From Pseudomonas sessilinigenes (lineage in GTDB: Bacteria > Pseudomonadota > Gammaproteobacteria > Pseudomonadales > Pseudomonadaceae): 64,000 nucleotides of DNA. A program made the translations under genes and the position numbers. Below are positions 2,637 to 14,601 of the stretch, one piece after another; position 1 is the stretch's first letter; each line of letters starts with the position of its first letter. The stretch spans positions 4,216,001 through 4,280,000 of the forward strand of contig NZ_CP027706.1 in the NCBI RefSeq assembly GCF_003850565.1. The letters are read 5' to 3'. Under the pieces are notes generated by a model that saw only the letters and a program-made list of their open reading frames with translations, was not told the DNA's origin and ran no database searches.

Positions 2637-3790
2637 AGCGGGTCCACAGCACGCCGCGCCCGGACTGGCAGGCCACGGCGCAGCGACTGGGGTTCGGCTT
2701 CCACACTTTCGATGGCGAGCCCTATTGGGACGAGTCGGCCTACTATCAGCTCAGCCTGCGACAGATCGAGGAGCACCTGGAGGACCCGACCCAGGCGCTG
2801 CATGAGTTGTGCATGGAGCTGGTGGCCGAGGTGGTGGAGAGCGAGGAGCTGCTGCAGCGCCTGGCCATTCCCGAGGCGTTCCACGAGCTGGTCCGCAGCT
2901 CGTGGAAGCGCCGCGATCCGCACCTCTATGGACGCATGGACCTGTGCTACGACGGCCACGGCCCGGCCAAGTTGCTGGAGACCAACTACGACACCCCGAC
3001 CTCGCTGTACGAGGCGAGCTTCTTCCAGTACGTCTGGCTCGAGCAGCAGATGCAGCGTGGCCAACTGCCGGCGGGTTGCGACCAGTTCAACAGCATCGAG
3101 GACAAGCTGCTGCAAGCCTTCGTGCAGGGTGGCTTCGGCTCGCCGTTGTACTTCTCCTCGGTCCGTGGCTCGGTGGAAGACCGGGGCACCGTCGAATACC
3201 TGCGCGACATCGCCCGCCAGGCTGGCCTGCGCACGCGGATGATCGATATCGAGGACATCGGCCTCGATGCTGGCGGGCGTTTCGTCGACCTGCAGGGCAC
3301 GCCCATCGACAACCTGTTCAAGCTCTATCCGTGGGAGCAGATGTTCAACGAAGACTATGGCCGGGCCATCGCCGCTAGCCGCACCGGCTTCGTCGAGCCG
3401 CCATGGAAGGCGATCCTCTCCAACAAGGGCGCCATGGCCCTGCTCTGGGAGCGTCATCCGGGGCATCCGAACCTGTTGCCGGCGTTCATCGACGAGCAGC
3501 CGACCGGCGACCTGCAACCGGGCTGGGTACGCAAGCCGTTCTTTTCCCGGGAGGGCGCCAATGTGCAGATCCGTACAAACGCTGGCGAACGGTTGAGCGA
3601 GGCCGGGCCCTACGGCGCGGGCCCGAGCATTCGCCAGCAGTTCCAGCCGTTGCCGAACTTCGCCGGCAACCACACCGTGATCGGTAGCTGGGTGATCGGC
3701 GACCGGCCGGCGGGGATCGGCATTCGCGAGGACAATTCGCCGATCACCAAGGACAGCAGCCGTTTCCTGCCCCATGTGATCCTCGACTGA
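2633..3790 (+). CDS. Glutathionylspermidine synthase-like ATP-grasp protein (YgiC/YjfC)
   Basis: Protein of 385 residues matching the YgiC/YjfC family, homologous to the C-terminal synthetase half of bifunctional glutathionylspermidine synthase but without the amidase half. Visible signatures are the ETNYDTPTSLYEASFFQY segment (about residues 115-132), the WEQMFNEDYG region and a C-terminal glycine-rich ATP-grasp segment (VIGDRPAGIGIREDNSPIT). The start is TTG at 2633, overlapping the upstream stop by four bases with a GGGGG tract just ahead; no in-frame ATG lies nearby. The real substrate of this family is not settled, so the synthase name should be read as homology only. Confidence 0.87.
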   Translation: MKRVHSTPRPDWQATAQRLGFGFHTFDGEPYWDESAYYQLSLRQIEEHLEDPTQALHELCMELVAEVVESEELLQRLAIPEAFHELVRSSWKRRDPHLYGRMDLCYDGHGPAKLLETNYDTPTSLYEASFFQYVWLEQQMQRGQLPAGCDQFNSIEDKLLQAFVQGGFGSPLYFSSVRGSVEDRGTVEYLRDIARQAGLRTRMIDIEDIGLDAGGRFVDLQGTPIDNLFKLYPWEQMFNEDYGRAIAASRTGFVEPPWKAILSNKGAMALLWERHPGHPNLLPAFIDEQPTGDLQPGWVRKPFFSREGANVQIRTNAGERLSEAGPYGAGPSIRQQFQPLPNFAGNHTVIGSWVIGDRPAGIGIREDNSPITKDSSRFLPHVILD

Positions 3791-8684: not shown

Positions 8685-9572
8685 TCAGTCGGCCCCGGCC
8701 AGCAACGCGTCGATACGCTGGTCCTTGTCGGTCCACAGCTGGTTGACCCAGTCCTGGACCTGCTGGCGGAACGCCGGGTCGTTCTCGTAGTCGCCGTGCC
8801 ACAGAGCCGGGTCCAGCTCACGGGTGCGGATATCGATGATCACCTTGGGCACGTTGCCGCTGATCAAGTCCCAGAAGCCGGGAATGCGTTCCTGGGGGTA
8901 GACCACGGTGACGTCCAGCATGGCGTCCAGCTGTTCGCCCATGGCGGCCAGGACGAAGGCCACGCCGCCGGCCTTGGGCTTGAGCAGGTGGCGCAAGGGC
9001 GAGGCTTGCTGCTCGCGCTTGGCCGGGGTGAAGCGGGTGCCTTCCAGGTAGTTGACCACGGTCACCGGCTGGCGCTTGAACAGCTCGCAGGCGGCCTTGG
9101 TGATCTCCAGGTCCTTGCCTTGCAGTTCCGGGTGCCTGGCCAGGAAGGCCTTGCTGTAGCGCTTCATGAAGGGGTAGTCCAGCGCCCACCAGGCCAGGCC
9201 CAGGAACGGCACCCAGATCAGTTCCTTCTTGAGGAAGAACTTGAAGAACGGCGTGCGCCGGTTGAGGGTCTGGATCAGGGCCGGGATGTCGACCCAGGAT
9301 TGGTGGTTGCTGACCACTAGGTACGAGGTGTCTTCACGCAGGCCTTCGCCACCGCGAATGTCCCAGCGGGTGGGGATGCAGGAGGCGAAGATCAGCTTGT
9401 CGATCTCGGCCCAGGTCTCGGCGATCCACATCACCGCGCCGGAGGCATAGTCCCGCAGGCGGCCCGGCAGGACCAGCTTGAGCAGGGCGAACACCATCAG
9501 GGGCCCGAACAGCACCAGGGTGTTGAGCAGAAGCAGCAGGGTGACGAGACAGCCGGTGAGCAGTCGGCGCAT
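8685..9572 (-). CDS. PlsC-family acyltransferase (YihG-like)
   Basis: Membrane-anchored glycerolipid acyltransferase of 295 residues. An N-terminal hydrophobic segment (about residues 8-32) anchors it. The acyltransferase HX4D motif is NHQSWVD, followed by a FFLKKEL block and the EGTR motif in VVNYLEGTRFTP. This arrangement fits YihG-type lysophosphatidate acyltransferases. The ATG at 9572 is preceded by AAAGAG; an upstream TTG/ATG extension adds a poorly supported leader. It stands alone on the minus strand, and the acyl substrate cannot be read from the sequence. Confidence 0.88.
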   Translation of the reverse strand: MRRLLTGCLVTLLLLLNTLVLFGPLMVFALLKLVLPGRLRDYASGAVMWIAETWAEIDKLIFASCIPTRWDIRGGEGLREDTSYLVVSNHQSWVDIPALIQTLNRRTPFFKFFLKKELIWVPFLGLAWWALDYPFMKRYSKAFLARHPELQGKDLEITKAACELFKRQPVTVVNYLEGTRFTPAKREQQASPLRHLLKPKAGGVAFVLAAMGEQLDAMLDVTVVYPQERIPGFWDLISGNVPKVIIDIRTRELDPALWHGDYENDPAFRQQVQDWVNQLWTDKDQRIDALLAGAD

Positions 9573-9804
9573 AAGGCACTCTTTACAATTTTTGGGGCGC
9601 GTAATGATAAGCAGCTTCGGCGAGCAGGCCAAATTCTAGTGTGCTGGCGAATGTTTCACCTGCGCTATGACAAGCTTTTTACAGTAACGCTCGGAACGGG
9701 CCGATCGTGCCCGAGGAAGCGGATAGCCTTTGCCGACTTTACGGATTTTCCCTGTTTCGCCACAGGCGCCTAATCGGCCGATACCCTCAATCGGAGCCTG
9801 TCCC

Positions 9805-10680
9805 ATGAACCGCCCCCTGGACCCAGCCGCCCTGGCGGCCTATTTCGATAGCCAATACAACGCCCGGGCCAGCGTCGCCGATTATGCCCAGTACCCGCGC
9901 CTGTACCGAGCGCTATCGGACGCCGCCCATGCCCGTACACCTTGTCATCGCGATGTGGCCTACGGCAGTGGAGCCAACGAGCGACTGGATATCTTTCCGG
10001 CAGCGCAGAGCGGGGCACCGGTGCTGCTGTTCATCCATGGCGGTTACTGGCGCGCGCTGTCGAAGGCCGACTCGGCGTTCATGGCTCCGGCACTCACCGC
10101 TGCCGGGGCCTGTGTGGTGGTGCTGGACTACGACCTGGCGCCCGCCGTGACCCTGGACCAGATCGTCGACCAGGCCCGCCGTGCATTGGCCTGGCTCTAC
10201 CGGCACGCCAGCGAATTCGGTGGCGATCCTCAGCGGCTCTATGCCAGTGGCAGTTCGGCGGGTGGCCATCTGGTGGGCATGCTGATGGCCGGAGGCTGGC
10301 AGGCTGGCCTGGGCGTACCGGACGATGTGCTGCGTGGTGCGCTGCCGATCAGCGGGCTGTTCGACCTGGAGCCGCTGCGCAGTACCCATATCAATGAGTG
10401 GATGCAGTTGAGCGTCGAGGATGCCCGGCGCAACAGCCCGCTGTTCCATTTGCCAAGCAGTGGTGCAGGGGAGCTGGTGATCAGCCACGGGGGCCTGGAA
10501 AGCGCGGAGTTCGCCTGGCAGTCCGCAAGCTTTCTCAAGGCCTGGAGGGATAGCGGATTTACCGGGCGGATGGTACCGGCGCCCGATAAGAACCACTTCG
10601 ATGTGGTGCTCGAACTGGGCCAGCCCGGTACACCACTTTACCAGGCGCTGTGCCGGCTCATGGGGCTGGACGTGCGGTAA
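9805..10680 (+). CDS. Alpha/beta hydrolase, arylformamidase-like
   Basis: Serine hydrolase of 291 residues with an HGGYW oxyanion motif (about residue 75), a nucleophile elbow GSSAGGH (about 153-159) and a late Asp/His pair (APDKNHFD). The HGGYW plus SAGGH combination is shared with kynurenine formamidases and BD-FAE type esterases. No signal peptide. The ATG at 9805 follows a CGGAGCC motif. It lies upstream of an AraC regulator and, beyond that, of genes for a flavin monooxygenase and a quinolone ring-opening dioxygenase. That enzyme would release N-acylanthranilate, a fitting substrate for this hydrolase. The hydrolase call is firm; that substrate is inference from context. Confidence 0.85.
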   Translation: MNRPLDPAALAAYFDSQYNARASVADYAQYPRLYRALSDAAHARTPCHRDVAYGSGANERLDIFPAAQSGAPVLLFIHGGYWRALSKADSAFMAPALTAAGACVVVLDYDLAPAVTLDQIVDQARRALAWLYRHASEFGGDPQRLYASGSSAGGHLVGMLMAGGWQAGLGVPDDVLRGALPISGLFDLEPLRSTHINEWMQLSVEDARRNSPLFHLPSSGAGELVISHGGLESAEFAWQSASFLKAWRDSGFTGRMVPAPDKNHFDVVLELGQPGTPLYQALCRLMGLDVR

Positions 10681-10689
10681 CACCCGTTG

Positions 10690-10705
10690 CCGGCGGTAAC
10701 GCCGG
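10690..10705 (+). other. GNRA-type hairpin after the hydrolase gene
   Basis: CCGGCG-GTAA-CGCCGG, a 6-bp stem closed by a GNRA tetraloop, begins ten bases after the hydrolase stop. No T-run follows, so it is at best a 3'-end stabiliser or weak terminator. Nothing else stands out in 10706-10888. Confidence 0.35.
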
Positions 10706-10888
10706 GTGACTGGAGCCAGGGGCGGCAGGCGGGCTGCCCGCCCGCGAGTTATCCGGAAAAACCGCCAATGTTATCCACCGGCTGCCCTGGCCGACGGGTG
10801 CCGGCCAAGCTGGCATGGAGCGTGCCTCAGCGACCTGGAGTACGCCACAAGAGCGTGCGTCCGATCTTGCATTCCAAGGTGCCGTGCG

Positions 10889-11893
10889 ATGAACACCATC
10901 AATTCCATTCGAGACATTTGCACTGAGGGCCGCGACCTTGCCTACGCCCAGCATTGGATGACCGCCATTTGCGGGCCCCATGAGTTGAGCTCTCGTGGTC
11001 CCGGCCAGGTGCGCTTCAGCCATCGCGGTACGGTACTGCGCTCGACGGCCATGACCTTGGGCCTGATGCACCACGGTGCCGAGGTCAGTGTCAGCATCGA
11101 AGATGGCGTGGGCCTGGACTGCTACAGCCTGAGCCTGCCCTTGAGCGGCGAGCAGCAGGTCAATGTCGGCGGATGCACCCTGGGCTCGGATCGCAACCGT
11201 GGGGTAATTCTTTCGCCCTATGGGGCCCAGCAACTGGATATCGCCGCCAATTGCCTGCAGTTGCACATAGCGATCCCGCGCCAGGCCATGGAGCAGGGCC
11301 TGGAGCATCTGCTGCAGCGACCGATGCAGGAGCCGCTGCGCTTCGAGCCTTCGATCGATGCCGTGCAGGGCGCCTCCGGCAGTTGGTGGCGCATGGTCGA
11401 GCATCTGGTACAGGACCTGCGCACCAGCATCGCCCTGTATGACCAGCCCGGGTTCACCCGGGACCTGGAGCATGCATTGATCAAGGGCCTGCTCCTGGCC
11501 CAGCCGAACAACTACAGCGCCAGGTTACGCCAGGATCAGGAGCGCCACCTGCCGCATTACCTGGTACGGGCCCGGGAGTTCATCCATGCCCATGCCCGGG
11601 AGGCGTTGGACCTGGACGCGATCGAAGCGGCCGCTGGGGTGTCGCGCTCCAAGTTGTTCGAGTGTTTTGGCCGGTACCTGGGGGTACCGCCGATGATCTA
11701 CCTCAAGCGCTATCGCTTGAATGGCGTGCGCGAGCAACTATTGGAGGACGGTTGCCCGGGCAATATCTCGGCGATTGCCATGTCTTGGGGATTTTTCCAC
11801 CTGGGGCGGTTTTCTGGCGAGTACCGCAAGCTGTTCGGCGAGACGCCCAGCGCGACCTTGCAACGCCTGGTGGCGCGGCGGGGCGGCCACTAA
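10889..11893 (+). CDS. AraC family transcriptional regulator
   Basis: Regulator of 334 residues. The N-terminal 200 residues resemble the AraC_binding_2 sensor domain of XylS/AntR-type aromatic-degradation regulators. The C-terminal double helix-turn-helix lies at about 225-330, with AGVSRSKLFECFGRYLGVPP in helix region one and WGFFHLGRFSGEYRKLFGETPS in region two. The GFxHLGRFSxxYxxxFGExPS pattern is the AntR/BenR style. The ATG at 10889 is preceded by AAGGT. It runs convergently to the monooxygenase-dioxygenase pair and is the natural candidate regulator of that pair and of the hydrolase upstream; the inducer is unknown. Confidence 0.9.
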   Translation: MNTINSIRDICTEGRDLAYAQHWMTAICGPHELSSRGPGQVRFSHRGTVLRSTAMTLGLMHHGAEVSVSIEDGVGLDCYSLSLPLSGEQQVNVGGCTLGSDRNRGVILSPYGAQQLDIAANCLQLHIAIPRQAMEQGLEHLLQRPMQEPLRFEPSIDAVQGASGSWWRMVEHLVQDLRTSIALYDQPGFTRDLEHALIKGLLLAQPNNYSARLRQDQERHLPHYLVRAREFIHAHAREALDLDAIEAAAGVSRSKLFECFGRYLGVPPMIYLKRYRLNGVREQLLEDGCPGNISAIAMSWGFFHLGRFSGEYRKLFGETPSATLQRLVARRGGH

Positions 11894-11920
11894 CGCCGCG
11901 CCGCGCTGGCAGATGGGCTT

Positions 11921-13060
11921 CTAGCTCGGGGTGCCCGTTGGCTGGCTGCACGCGGCCCGCAGGAACTGCCGGCGTACCCACTCATCCCCCATGCCATGTT
12001 GCAGCACCCGTTGCCGGGCTTCGTCCGGTAGGGTCGAGACCTCGCCGTACAGGCACGACCAGCGCTGGCAGTGCTCGGCCAGCTCCCGCTCGCCGGCTTC
12101 CCAGGCCGCCAGGCGCGCCGGGATATCGCGGCGATCCTGCAAGCCTTCCAGGTAATGGGCCAGGGCCAGCCCGGTTTGCATCGACATGCCGCCGCCCTGG
12201 CCCAGGTGCGGTGGCTGGGCATGGGCGGCATCGCCGATCAGCGCCGTGTGCCCCGCCGACCAGGCTCGGACCTTGACGATGCTGTATTGCGCCCAGGGCA
12301 GCACTTCGTCCACCCGTTCGATCAGGTGCGCCCAGGTCGGAAAGGCCTCGCACCAGGTCGCATGATCCAGCGGCGAGGCCTTGCCCCGGATGTCGTCCTT
12401 CTGGCAGGTCAACGCCAGGTAGATGCGTTTTCCGTCCAGCGGGGTGATCAGCAGGCGGCGGTTGCCGCTCCAGCACTCGAGGTACTTGCCCTGGCCGTCC
12501 GGGCCGAGCTCCTGCTGGGTACCGGGAATGATGGCGCGCAGGGCGCCTTCGTCGGTCTGCTGGTGGAACTGTTCCAGCCCCAGCGTTCGTCGTACCACCG
12601 ACCACACGCCATCGGCACCGATGGCCAGGTCCGCTTGCTCGTGTCGGGCACCGGCGAACAACAATTCGCCAGCAGCGCTGGCGCCGAGCACTTCGCAGCC
12701 GGTGCGGATATTTACCCCGGCGGCCAGTGCCGCGTCCCTCAGGCCCGCCAGCAAGGCGCTACGGGCCACTGTCACCAGGCGTATCCCGGACGGTAGCTGG
12801 CCTGCCTCGAGTATTCGTCCGGCACCGTCGCGCTGCTCCATGGCCCGGCCATGGAAGGCATCGGCGGCAATCGCCTTAACGCCCAGGGCCTCGAGGATAC
12901 GCAGGCCGTTTTCCCAGATGTAGATGCCCGAACCCTGGGCCCGCAGTTCGGCCTGGCGTTCGTAAATGGTCACCGACCAACCTCGCTGCGCCAGGGCTGT
13001 GGCGGCGGCGAGGCCACCGAAACCTCCGCCGGCGATGATCGCGTTGAAACCCTTGTTCAT
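11921..13060 (-). CDS. FAD-dependent monooxygenase, probable 4-quinolone 3-hydroxylase
   Basis: Class A flavoprotein monooxygenase of 379 residues: dinucleotide-binding GGGFGGLAAATALAQRG (about residues 10-26), the DG motif IGADGVWS (about 155-162) and the GDAAHAQPPHLGQGG motif (about 282-296). The ATG at 13060 has AGGAG seven bases ahead; an upstream TTG is rejected. It begins 14 bases after the stop of the ring-opening dioxygenase gene, so the two form an operon. In known 4-oxoquinoline and alkylquinolone pathways a flavin monooxygenase makes the 3-hydroxy compound that the dioxygenase then cleaves. That assignment is inferred from the partner gene; the enzyme class is read directly. Confidence 0.87.
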   Translation of the reverse strand: MNKGFNAIIAGGGFGGLAAATALAQRGWSVTIYERQAELRAQGSGIYIWENGLRILEALGVKAIAADAFHGRAMEQRDGAGRILEAGQLPSGIRLVTVARSALLAGLRDAALAAGVNIRTGCEVLGASAAGELLFAGARHEQADLAIGADGVWSVVRRTLGLEQFHQQTDEGALRAIIPGTQQELGPDGQGKYLECWSGNRRLLITPLDGKRIYLALTCQKDDIRGKASPLDHATWCEAFPTWAHLIERVDEVLPWAQYSIVKVRAWSAGHTALIGDAAHAQPPHLGQGGGMSMQTGLALAHYLEGLQDRRDIPARLAAWEAGERELAEHCQRWSCLYGEVSTLPDEARQRVLQHGMGDEWVRRQFLRAACSQPTGTPS

Positions 13061-13074
13061 GGGATCGCTCCTAT

Positions 13075-13869
13075 TCAAGCGCAGAAGAAATCATCGATGG
13101 CCCGGGCCACGGCCTGGGGGTTCTCCAGAGTCGGGAAGTGGGTATTGCCGGGGATGTGGCAGGGGTCGAACCAGCTGTGTTCGGCGGCGAAGTCCTGCTG
13201 CATGCGCCGGTAGCCCGGGTCCAGCGGTTGCGAATAGATATGCCGCACCAGGGGCTTGTCAGCGATGCTCGACATGCGCTCCAGCGGGCTGCCCCAGCGC
13301 CGGTAGCAGATCTCGATCTCGCGGCAGGCGCGGCGCCACATGGTGCCGTCGAACCAGGGCATTTCGTGGCGCAGGTGCTGGAGCACATCGGCGTTGTCGG
13401 TGCTGGCGGCCCACTCGTCGAAGAAGCTCTGGCGACCGGTGGCATAGTCGGTGGGGTGCTGGCCTTGGGCGAGCTGCTGCCAGAAGCCCTCATGGGGATG
13501 CATCAGCCAGTCGACCACCACGGTCTTGGGGAGGCGTTTGCTACCCAGGCGTTCGCAGACCTCCAGGTTGACCCAGCAGCCGTGGGACGTGGAGACCAGG
13601 CGCACTGAGTCCAGGCCCTTGAAGTCAATGAAGGCCAGCAAGTCGTCGGCCAGGTCCAGGGCGCTGAAGTCGCCGCCGTCTGTCTGCTTCGGGTCGTGGC
13701 CGCGCCAGTCCAGGCACATCACATGAAAGCGCTCGGCCAGCAGTGGCGCCAGGCTCTTGAACAGCCGGCGATCCTGGCACCAGCCGCTGAGCAGCAACAG
13801 GCTCGGGGCTTCGGAGTCGCCGGTTTCGGTATAGGTCATCAGGACATCGTTCAGGTGCACGGTCTGCAT
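13075..13869 (-). CDS. qdo: Cofactor-free 1H-3-hydroxy-4-oxoquinoline 2,4-dioxygenase-like enzyme
   Basis: Alpha/beta-hydrolase-fold protein of 264 residues that closely resembles, from memory, Qdo of Pseudomonas putida 33/1 (EC 1.13.11.47). That enzyme opens the heteroring of 3-hydroxy-4-quinolones with O2, releasing CO and N-acylanthranilate without metal or cofactor. Matching features are LLSGWCQD near residue 26, DWRGHD at 54-59 and the nucleophile elbow STSHGCW with Ser95. Asp120 (VVVDW) and His244 (GNTHFP) complete a triad at the same numbers as I recall for Qdo. It is first in a two-gene operon with the FAD monooxygenase. Substrate (unsubstituted, 2-methyl or 2-alkyl quinolone) is not resolved. 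Confidence 0.82.
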   Translation of the reverse strand: MQTVHLNDVLMTYTETGDSEAPSLLLLSGWCQDRRLFKSLAPLLAERFHVMCLDWRGHDPKQTDGGDFSALDLADDLLAFIDFKGLDSVRLVSTSHGCWVNLEVCERLGSKRLPKTVVVDWLMHPHEGFWQQLAQGQHPTDYATGRQSFFDEWAASTDNADVLQHLRHEMPWFDGTMWRRACREIEICYRRWGSPLERMSSIADKPLVRHIYSQPLDPGYRRMQQDFAAEHSWFDPCHIPGNTHFPTLENPQAVARAIDDFFCA

Positions 13870-14100
13870 GGTGTCGCTCCTTTGCGATTGAGTGGGCGAG
13901 GCAGCGGGACGCGCTGGCCGGCGCCAGTCAATGGTGCGCCGGGGGTGGGGGACGGGCTATCCGGTGGGTGGGGAGTCGTTGTCCGCAGAGTCCCAGGCTG
14001 GGGCTACAGACGTTTGCCGCGATAGCGCGATATCGTGCGAACCAATTACTTGGCGGCGGTCTAAAATCCCGCTGTCCCTTTCCTCGAGGAATCCTGCGTC

Positions 14101-14601
14101 GTGAAATCCGTCCTTGCTCTGCTGTCTCTGGTGGCGTTGCCGGTCCTGGCCGCCGAACCGACCCTGTACGGTCGCTACGAAAACATCCGTTTGCCGGAGA
14201 TCGGCGAAACCTTGCAGGCCAAGATGGATACCGGGGCCCTGACTGCGTCGCTGTCGGCCAGGGACATCCAGACCTTCACCCGCGATGGCCAGACATGGGT
14301 GCGCTTCCGCCTGGCCACCAAGGATGCCGGCGACAAGGTCTACGAACACAAGGTGGCGCGGATCAGCAAGATCAAGAGCCGCTCCGACGAAGACGACGAG
14401 CGTGAGGAGCCCCAGGCGGCCAAGCGCCCGGTGGTGGAGTTGGAAATGTGCCTGGGCAACGTCAAGCGCACGGTGGAGGTCAACCTCACCGACCGCAGCA
14501 GCTTCAACTATCCGCTGCTGATCGGCGCCAAGGCCCTGCGTGAATTCGGCGCGGCAGTGAACCCGGCACGGCGCTACACCGCCGACAAGCCTGACTGCTG
14601 A
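14101..14601 (+). CDS. Retropepsin-like (DUF/Zn_protease PF05618) exported protein
   Basis: Protein of 166 residues with a short signal peptide (residues 1-17, ending Val-Leu-Ala-Ala). The mature part has the aspartic-protease-like motif KMDTGALTASLSA (about residues 42-54) and the later FNYPLLIGAKALREFG motif of the family once named ATP-dependent zinc protease and now regarded as retropepsin-like (RloA/RimB-like). A charged insertion RSDEDDEREEPQAAKRP sits in the middle. The start is GTG at 14101, with GAGGAA ahead. It stands directly upstream of creBC, as in P. aeruginosa. Substrate unknown; one catalytic Asp per chain implies a dimer. Confidence 0.85.
   Translation: MKSVLALLSLVALPVLAAEPTLYGRYENIRLPEIGETLQAKMDTGALTASLSARDIQTFTRDGQTWVRFRLATKDAGDKVYEHKVARISKIKSRSDEDDEREEPQAAKRPVVELEMCLGNVKRTVEVNLTDRSSFNYPLLIGAKALREFGAAVNPARRYTADKPDC

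Follow-up and report, generated by a model that had tools for sequence, protein, structure and literature searches.

A QDO-type island for predicted 4-quinolone catabolism in Pseudomonas sessilinigenes, with a probable AntR-type regulon

Introduction

Four neighboring genes in Pseudomonas sessilinigenes, encoding an alpha/beta hydrolase, an AraC/XylS-family regulator, an FAD monooxygenase and a cofactor-free dioxygenase, raise the question whether they serve the catabolism of 4-quinolones or the destruction of the alkylquinolone signals of other bacteria. The genes belong to an inserted segment of about 4.35 kb, below called the island, within a stretch of 64,000 nucleotides (the window; positions 4,216,001 to 4,280,000 of NZ_CP027706.1, forward strand; Table 1). 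An earlier note on this DNA read them as a pathway of 3-hydroxylation, ring opening with loss of CO and deacylation to anthranilate, possibly directed at quorum signals. The gene arrangement and the enzyme classes are borne out by the open reading frames (all four genes are open, at the coordinates given in that note), by phmmer searches of PDB and by Pfam, and the outline of the pathway is supported as well, e.g., by the 40% identity of the hydrolase to one encoded beside HOD. The island appears to be catabolic, dedicated to unsubstituted 4-quinolone (4-hydroxyquinoline) and of the type of the dioxygenase QDO from P. putida 33/1, a reading to which we assign a probability of roughly 0.78. Judging by the sequence features described below, destruction of the alkylquinolone signals of other bacteria is a far less probable role, some side activity on them being possible. 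The predicted pathway is of a known kind, QDO-type, on a rare island; the part that may be new is the probable AntR-type regulon.

The dioxygenase

A phmmer search of PDB started with the island dioxygenase identifies the QDO of Pseudomonas putida 33/1 (3ibt) as the best match (E = 1.3e-132), compared with E = 1.5e-52 for AqdC (6ra2) and E = 8e-51 for HOD (2wj3). The protein, which contains the Pfam domain Abhydrolase_6, is identical to QDO 33/1 at 180 of 262 positions (68.7%) and to HOD, AqdC2 and Mycobacterium abscessus AqdC at 93/264 (35.2%), 90/264 (34.1%) and 89/257 (34.6%), respectively. QDO and HOD are described as the earliest known examples of oxygenases with an alpha/beta-hydrolase fold (PMC10548524); for QDO, the substrate is given as unsubstituted 3-hydroxy-4-oxoquinoline and His244 as a catalytic residue (PMC6479552). 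Both Asp120 and His244 are conserved in the island dioxygenase. The active sites were compared at 18 positions, namely the 19 ligand-contact residues of HOD as tabulated in PMC10548524, minus Gly35, Cys37 and Gly103, plus Asp126 and His251. The island protein agrees with QDO 33/1 at all 18, whereas HOD deviates at six (H38, L143, L156, S188, G189 and H100, in HOD numbering). The pocket of the island enzyme contains Gly/Phe/Cys/Thr where HOD and AqdC2 carry Leu/Leu/Gly/His, and the elbow residue is Ser, as in QDO 33/1, instead of the Ala found in both AqdC and AqdC2.

In a maximum-likelihood tree (52 rows, hand-picked from 80 loci and 64 proteins, plus references), the island dioxygenase is the sister of the pair formed by QDO 33/1 and a P. 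synxantha protein (support 98/96). The QDO clade comprises 25 rows (100/100), and HOD and the two AqdC sequences form a separate group (98/91). Judging by its tree position, the catalytic His and Asp, the elbow Ser and the QDO-type pocket, the island dioxygenase is a QDO. Beyond the likeness to QDO 33/1 (69% over 262 residues, sister position, 18/18 positions), the island shows an accompanying monooxygenase, an amidase-like gene and a regulator; no description of the gene cluster or neighborhood of QDO 33/1 was found in the literature searched.

The monooxygenase, the hydrolase and the predicted pathway

The dioxygenase and monooxygenase genes are arranged head to tail as one unit, dioxygenase first, with a gap of 14 bp. 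The monooxygenase (Pfam FAD_binding_3; the ATG is at 13060, the query sequences having started one codon early, at 13063) is similar to 2-methyl-3-hydroxypyridine-5-carboxylate oxygenase (E = 1.6e-54). It is 67% identical to the P. edaphica enzyme and 64-70% identical to enzymes encoded in alphaproteobacterial QDO loci; the identity is 38% to the monooxygenase of plasmid pAL1 and 37% to AqdB2.

The hydrolase contains the motifs HGGYW at residue 78 and GSSAG at residue 149 and BD-FAE/Abhydrolase_3 domains. It is 40% identical over 285 aa to the product of the gene that follows HOD on pAL1, annotated in the record as an alpha/beta hydrolase, which we take to be the N-acetylanthranilate amidase Amq, and 42% identical to the hydrolase of an Aminobacter operon that also encodes an FAD monooxygenase and an HQD-type dioxygenase. 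The comparison with AqdA2 yields a local match of 110 aa and nothing more. Full-length similarity, along with the dioxygenase and monooxygenase neighbors, is consistent with the predicted N-acylanthranilate amidase activity. Elsewhere in Pseudomonas, a homologue with 69% identity is encoded in an antR-antABC-transporter cluster that includes an AntR homologue, antA, a branched-chain-type permease and an OprD porin (genome G001), and another (72%), interrupted by one internal TGA, adjoins an AntR homologue (genome G202). A role of the island hydrolase as the sole kynurenine formamidase of the host was considered and rejected given the canonical kynB at G000:C1:814158 (G000 is the own genome).

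In the proposed pathway, the FAD monooxygenase would hydroxylate 4-quinolone at C3; QDO, with its His-Asp dyad and O2 and no cofactor, would, by close homology, open the ring to yield N-formylanthranilate and CO; and the hydrolase, as its homology and genome contexts suggest, would remove the formyl group to give anthranilate. The host possesses antABC and catechol genes that would carry anthranilate into central metabolism: antA scores 974 bits against a cut-off of 672, and catechol 1,2-dioxygenase is above its cut-off. Kynureninase is encoded near antA and kynB about 8 kb away, with kynB, kynU and antABC all within about 12 kb. Given that 4-hydroxyquinoline is reported beside kynurenic acid in leaf-beetle feces (PMC12745818), a natural supply is plausible. 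The 2-methylquinoline cluster on pAL1 of Arthrobacter sp. Rue61a consists of the same three enzyme families (monooxygenase 38%, dioxygenase 35%, hydrolase 40% identity). It differs in that it additionally includes a molybdopterin-type dehydrogenase and an MFS transporter, its HOD belongs to the other clade, the gene order is different and no AntR-type regulator is annotated there.

The regulator and a candidate operator

The regulator combines AraC_binding_2 and HTH_18 domains and is 55% identical to the product of G000:C1:823620-824603, the gene adjoining host antA. By this similarity it is a paralogue of host AntR, which agrees with the AntR-style regulator of the earlier note. The island shares with antR-antABC this regulator type and the candidate operator described below; unlike AntR, however, the island regulator sits with quinolone-opening enzymes, in an insert away from antABC. 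According to PMC1360089, AntR activates antABC of P. fluorescens and no XylS consensus site was found at the antABC promoter, where a figure of that paper marks a 9-bp direct repeat. The XylS consensus TGCA-N6-GGNTA has no match in 9301-14200 of the window.

The pattern GGATA-N17-GGATA derives from GGATA repeats with a 22-bp spacing that precede antA, several regulator genes and, in P. edaphica and G202, the hydrolase genes. With at most one mismatch, the pattern occurs three times in the window, against 0.69 expected, and all three copies fall in the three promoter regions of the island (Table 1). A separate set of 40 regions upstream of AntR homologues, one per genome (L159-L198) and with the regions used for motif discovery excluded, contains the exact pattern in 28 cases and the pattern with at most one mismatch in 35, the shuffle means being 0.0 and 0.4 regions, respectively; 22 bp is the sole same-strand GGATA spacing up to 60 bp in these regions (28 cases). 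The regions were chosen by the regulator gene, whatever its neighbors, and are related by descent, some being near-identical; the case therefore rests on conservation and not on the shuffle means. The element is mostly on the antA-coding strand and mostly 108-143 bp before the aligned regulator start (which is not exactly the ATG); the exact copy upstream of the island regulator has a similar place and the same orientation. The own genome (6.9 Mb) contains seven exact copies, compared with one for the reversed pattern, and two of the seven are located at antR-antA and at the island regulator. The 9-mer CGGATAGCC, found at both outer promoters of the island, is not significant alone (2 found; 9/100 shuffles reach 2).

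GGATA-N17-GGATA is thus a candidate AntR operator in Pseudomonas, and the 9-bp direct repeat marked in PMC1360089 may be part of this element. Through it, the AntR paralogue, probably sensing anthranilate, would activate the two transcription units and possibly also the regulator gene itself. Given that the repeats are also present upstream of antA, anthranilate would induce the upstream pathway and the downstream drain together; the island and antABC likely share an anthranilate-responsive regulon. The locus represents a candidate pathway that is complete, has its own specific regulator and shares a testable operator with antABC. A more far-reaching proposal, for which we consider the odds to be somewhat below even, sees the island as a plug-in to the tryptophan-anthranilate metabolism of the host, in which a 4-quinolone-opening pathway was captured by a duplicated AntR into one feed-forward regulon and wired by GGATA-N17-GGATA. 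This element would then be the AntR site for which a XylS-type consensus was sought in vain at the P. fluorescens antABC promoter in a 2006 study, and the regulon would let the strain feed on quinolones that insects or other hosts release from kynurenine metabolism.

Distribution and gene neighborhoods

Among Pseudomonas genomes, own included, the dioxygenase is present in 2 of 398 (E <= 1e-30), the hydrolase in 3 of 199 (1e-70) and the regulator family in 60 of 199 (1e-60). The monooxygenase was found in the own genome only (1 of 199 at 1e-60), which is a lower bound for the genus because P. edaphica is outside the 199-genome sample. A contig scan identified 107 dioxygenase relatives, of which the best 80 loci were kept and gene order was analyzed in 64 (L017-L080). 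In P. edaphica (L017), a regulator gene comes first, followed by the genes for the monooxygenase, the hydrolase and QDO and by a second regulator gene; an integrase-core (rve) gene is close to the contig end. The same locus carries the remnant of another QDO gene that has undergone an internal deletion (about 3435-3573, minus strand; two fragments, E = 1e-6 and 2e-5) and is placed directly before the monooxygenase gene, an order that is the same as in the island. The Paraburkholderia locus (L027) encodes an AraC-type protein (29%), a hydrolase, QDO, an MFS-like protein (by eye) and a monooxygenase. In all nine loci of a group from Bradyrhizobium, Mesorhizobium, Metarhizobium, Beijerinckia and Paracoccus (L018-L025, L080), a QDO-like gene (55-61%) shares the locus with a monooxygenase gene (64-70%) that either adjoins it or is about 6 kb off. 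These nine loci also have in common one family of binding-protein-like genes, the tested member of which resembles ABC transporter binding proteins, with scores below the cut-offs. In the Bradyrhizobium locus L018 (5783-7964), an isochorismatase-type amidohydrolase, RutB/biuret-hydrolase-like with scores below the cut-offs, is encoded along with a second FAD monooxygenase, and the island-type hydrolase is not there; the amidohydrolase is a possible replacement deformylase.

The order monooxygenase, dioxygenase (42-48%), island-type hydrolase (40-49%) is found in 25 of the 64 loci, mostly from Aminobacter, Brucella, Nitratireductor, Mesorhizobium and related rhizobia. In some of these more distant loci (L033, 10431-14781, and similar ones among L032-L070), the operon is followed by a gene for a 3-hydroxyanthranilate 3,4-dioxygenase, of which one protein was tested and scores 281 bits against a cut-off of 220. 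Genes for an aldehyde dehydrogenase, a DapA-like aldolase and a lactonase-like protein are downstream of the operon as well. The 3-hydroxyanthranilate 3,4-dioxygenase family is represented in 16 of the 64 loci. This context suggests that the L033-type loci encode an 8-hydroxy-4-quinolone (xanthurenate-type) pathway.

Alternative explanations

The possibility raised in the earlier note that the island acts like aqdABC and quenches quorum signals by degrading 2-heptyl-4-quinolone (HHQ) and the Pseudomonas quinolone signal (PQS) now appears very improbable. The island and aqdABC do share the three reaction types, with 37% identity between the monooxygenase and AqdB2 and 35% between the dioxygenases, and HOD, the physiological substrate of which is the 2-methyl compound, is described as still cleaving PQS, with low activity (PMC8961568). 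However, both the clade and the pocket of the dioxygenase, including the elbow Ser, are those of QDO and not of AqdC or HOD, and the aqdRABC cluster of Rhodococcus erythropolis BG43 and M. abscessus contains the carboxylesterase AqdA and the TetR-type regulator AqdR next to a dioxygenase of the AqdC clade with the elbow Ala (PMC5332414), whereas the island encodes neither an AqdA-like hydrolase nor a TetR-type regulator. On the combined basis of the dioxygenase clade, the active-site positions and the hydrolase and regulator types, quenching was rejected as the main role. A weak and partial check for PqsD, in which 2 of the 5 FabH-type synthases of the host were compared with PDB, also argues against alkylquinolones: for one synthase, PqsD is far down the list (E = 9e-36; best match 2e-109), and the other has no PqsD match at E <= 1e-30. 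Two neighboring FabH-type synthase genes are located at G000:C1:6753216-6755933 (L125, L128), the best match of the L125 protein being 3gwa, and adjoin, by eye, aminotransferase-like and short-chain dehydrogenase-like genes. More generally, the sequence marks used here separate QDO-type catabolism from AqdC-type quorum quenching, and an HQD gene need not imply quenching of alkylquinolone signals.

Catabolism of 4-hydroxyquinoline itself has two further competitors, both unlikely. The true substrate could be a different 4-quinolone, one that is 2-unsubstituted or carries ring substituents, or else kynurenate once it has been decarboxylated. The proximity of host kynB, kynU and antABC is compatible with this possibility, as is the occurrence of 4-hydroxyquinoline together with kynurenic acid in leaf-beetle feces (PMC12745818), and the 3-hydroxyanthranilate 3,4-dioxygenase genes next to distant relatives hint that the family may accept ring-substituted quinolones; the complete agreement with QDO 33/1 at the compared positions speaks for the unsubstituted compound, and no gene beyond the four was recognized among the open reading frames of the island. 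Alternatively, the hydrolase-regulator and dioxygenase-monooxygenase pairs could be two unrelated modules, with the hydrolase acting on some other anthranilate ester or amide. This would fit the genomes G202 and G001, in which the hydrolase homologue is present beside an AntR homologue or near antABC and no QDO was found, and the P. edaphica and Paraburkholderia hydrolases, which belong to another subfamily (30-32%). A single common insert, one operator type upstream of all three island units and the fact that hydrolases of the same family follow monooxygenase and dioxygenase genes both on pAL1 and at 25 of the 64 loci argue for one pathway.

Several other observations weigh against the assignment of the island to anthranilate-controlled catabolism of 4-hydroxyquinoline. 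HOD forms a long branch in the tree and its placement is flagged as unsure by the program. The hydrolase family is very large (6806 of 7999 scored candidates at E <= 1e-30), so that homology alone does not fix the role of the hydrolase, and the monooxygenase is no more than 37-38% identical to the pAL1 and aqd cluster enzymes. The island contains no transporter gene. The best NCBIfam model for the regulator, AndR, gives 140.6 bits against a cut-off of 350, and host AntR, encoded beside antA, likewise stays below it (148.1 bits). For the operator, two of the three island copies have one mismatch, 4/100 shuffles also give three matches in the window, GGATA at the two outer promoters was spotted before the spacing emerged elsewhere, and 5 of the 40 regions upstream of AntR homologues lack the element. 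Enzyme families, QDO membership, gene order, the insertion, the drain genes and the operator pattern can be read from the sequence; the substrates, the product, the inducer and the activation are predictions.

The insertion site

The earlier note had described the genes as interrupting a conserved Pseudomonas gene order, which holds and can be sharpened: the island is a lone insert. The flanks were searched in 79 genomes, seven of which were picked by hand for reading of the site. In all seven, the segment is missing and 36-223 bp are present instead, flank similarity extending up to 9610-9661 and resuming from 14014-14101; among the matches listed, only the own genome covers the full 6.7 kb span. 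AmiS is encoded on the left side of the acyltransferase gene, and the zinc-protease-like gene is followed by creB (above its cut-off).

Table 1. Features of the island and its immediate surroundings (window coordinates)
Feature	Coordinates	Strand	Remarks
Inserted segment (island)	9660..14037	.	between acyltransferase and zinc-protease-like genes; ends +/- few tens of bp
Alpha/beta hydrolase, predicted N-formylanthranilate (N-acylanthranilate) amidase	9805..10680	+	291 aa; motifs, homology, genome contexts
AraC/XylS-family regulator, host AntR paralogue by similarity	10889..11893	+	55% identity, Pfam, NCBIfam
FAD monooxygenase, predicted 4-quinolone 3-monooxygenase	11921..13060	-	homology, locus partners
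Cofactor-free 3-hydroxy-4-quinolone 2,4-dioxygenase (QDO), by similarity	13075..13869	-	3ibt match, active-site residues, tree
Candidate AntR-type operator GGATA-N17-GGATT	9721..9747	+	1 mismatch; 57 bp before hydrolase start
Candidate AntR-type operator, exact	10750..10776	-	112 bp before regulator start
Candidate AntR-type operator GGACA-N17-GGATA	13958..13984	-	1 mismatch; 88 bp before dioxygenase start
Acyltransferase gene	8685-9572		PF01553; immediate left neighbor of island
Zinc-protease-like gene	14101-14601		PF05618; immediate right neighbor of island

No integrase gene is present among the island open reading frames, and no convincing repeats at the island ends are seen among those listed (20 of at least 60 direct families, 25 of 109 inverted pairs). 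A search for sigma-70 promoters found 1 against 0.7 expected, and nothing in an Rfam scan reached the gathering scores. The GC content by codon position, 0.76-0.88 in the island genes and 0.85-0.92 in the neighboring genes, overlaps and is weak evidence. The island was probably acquired horizontally.

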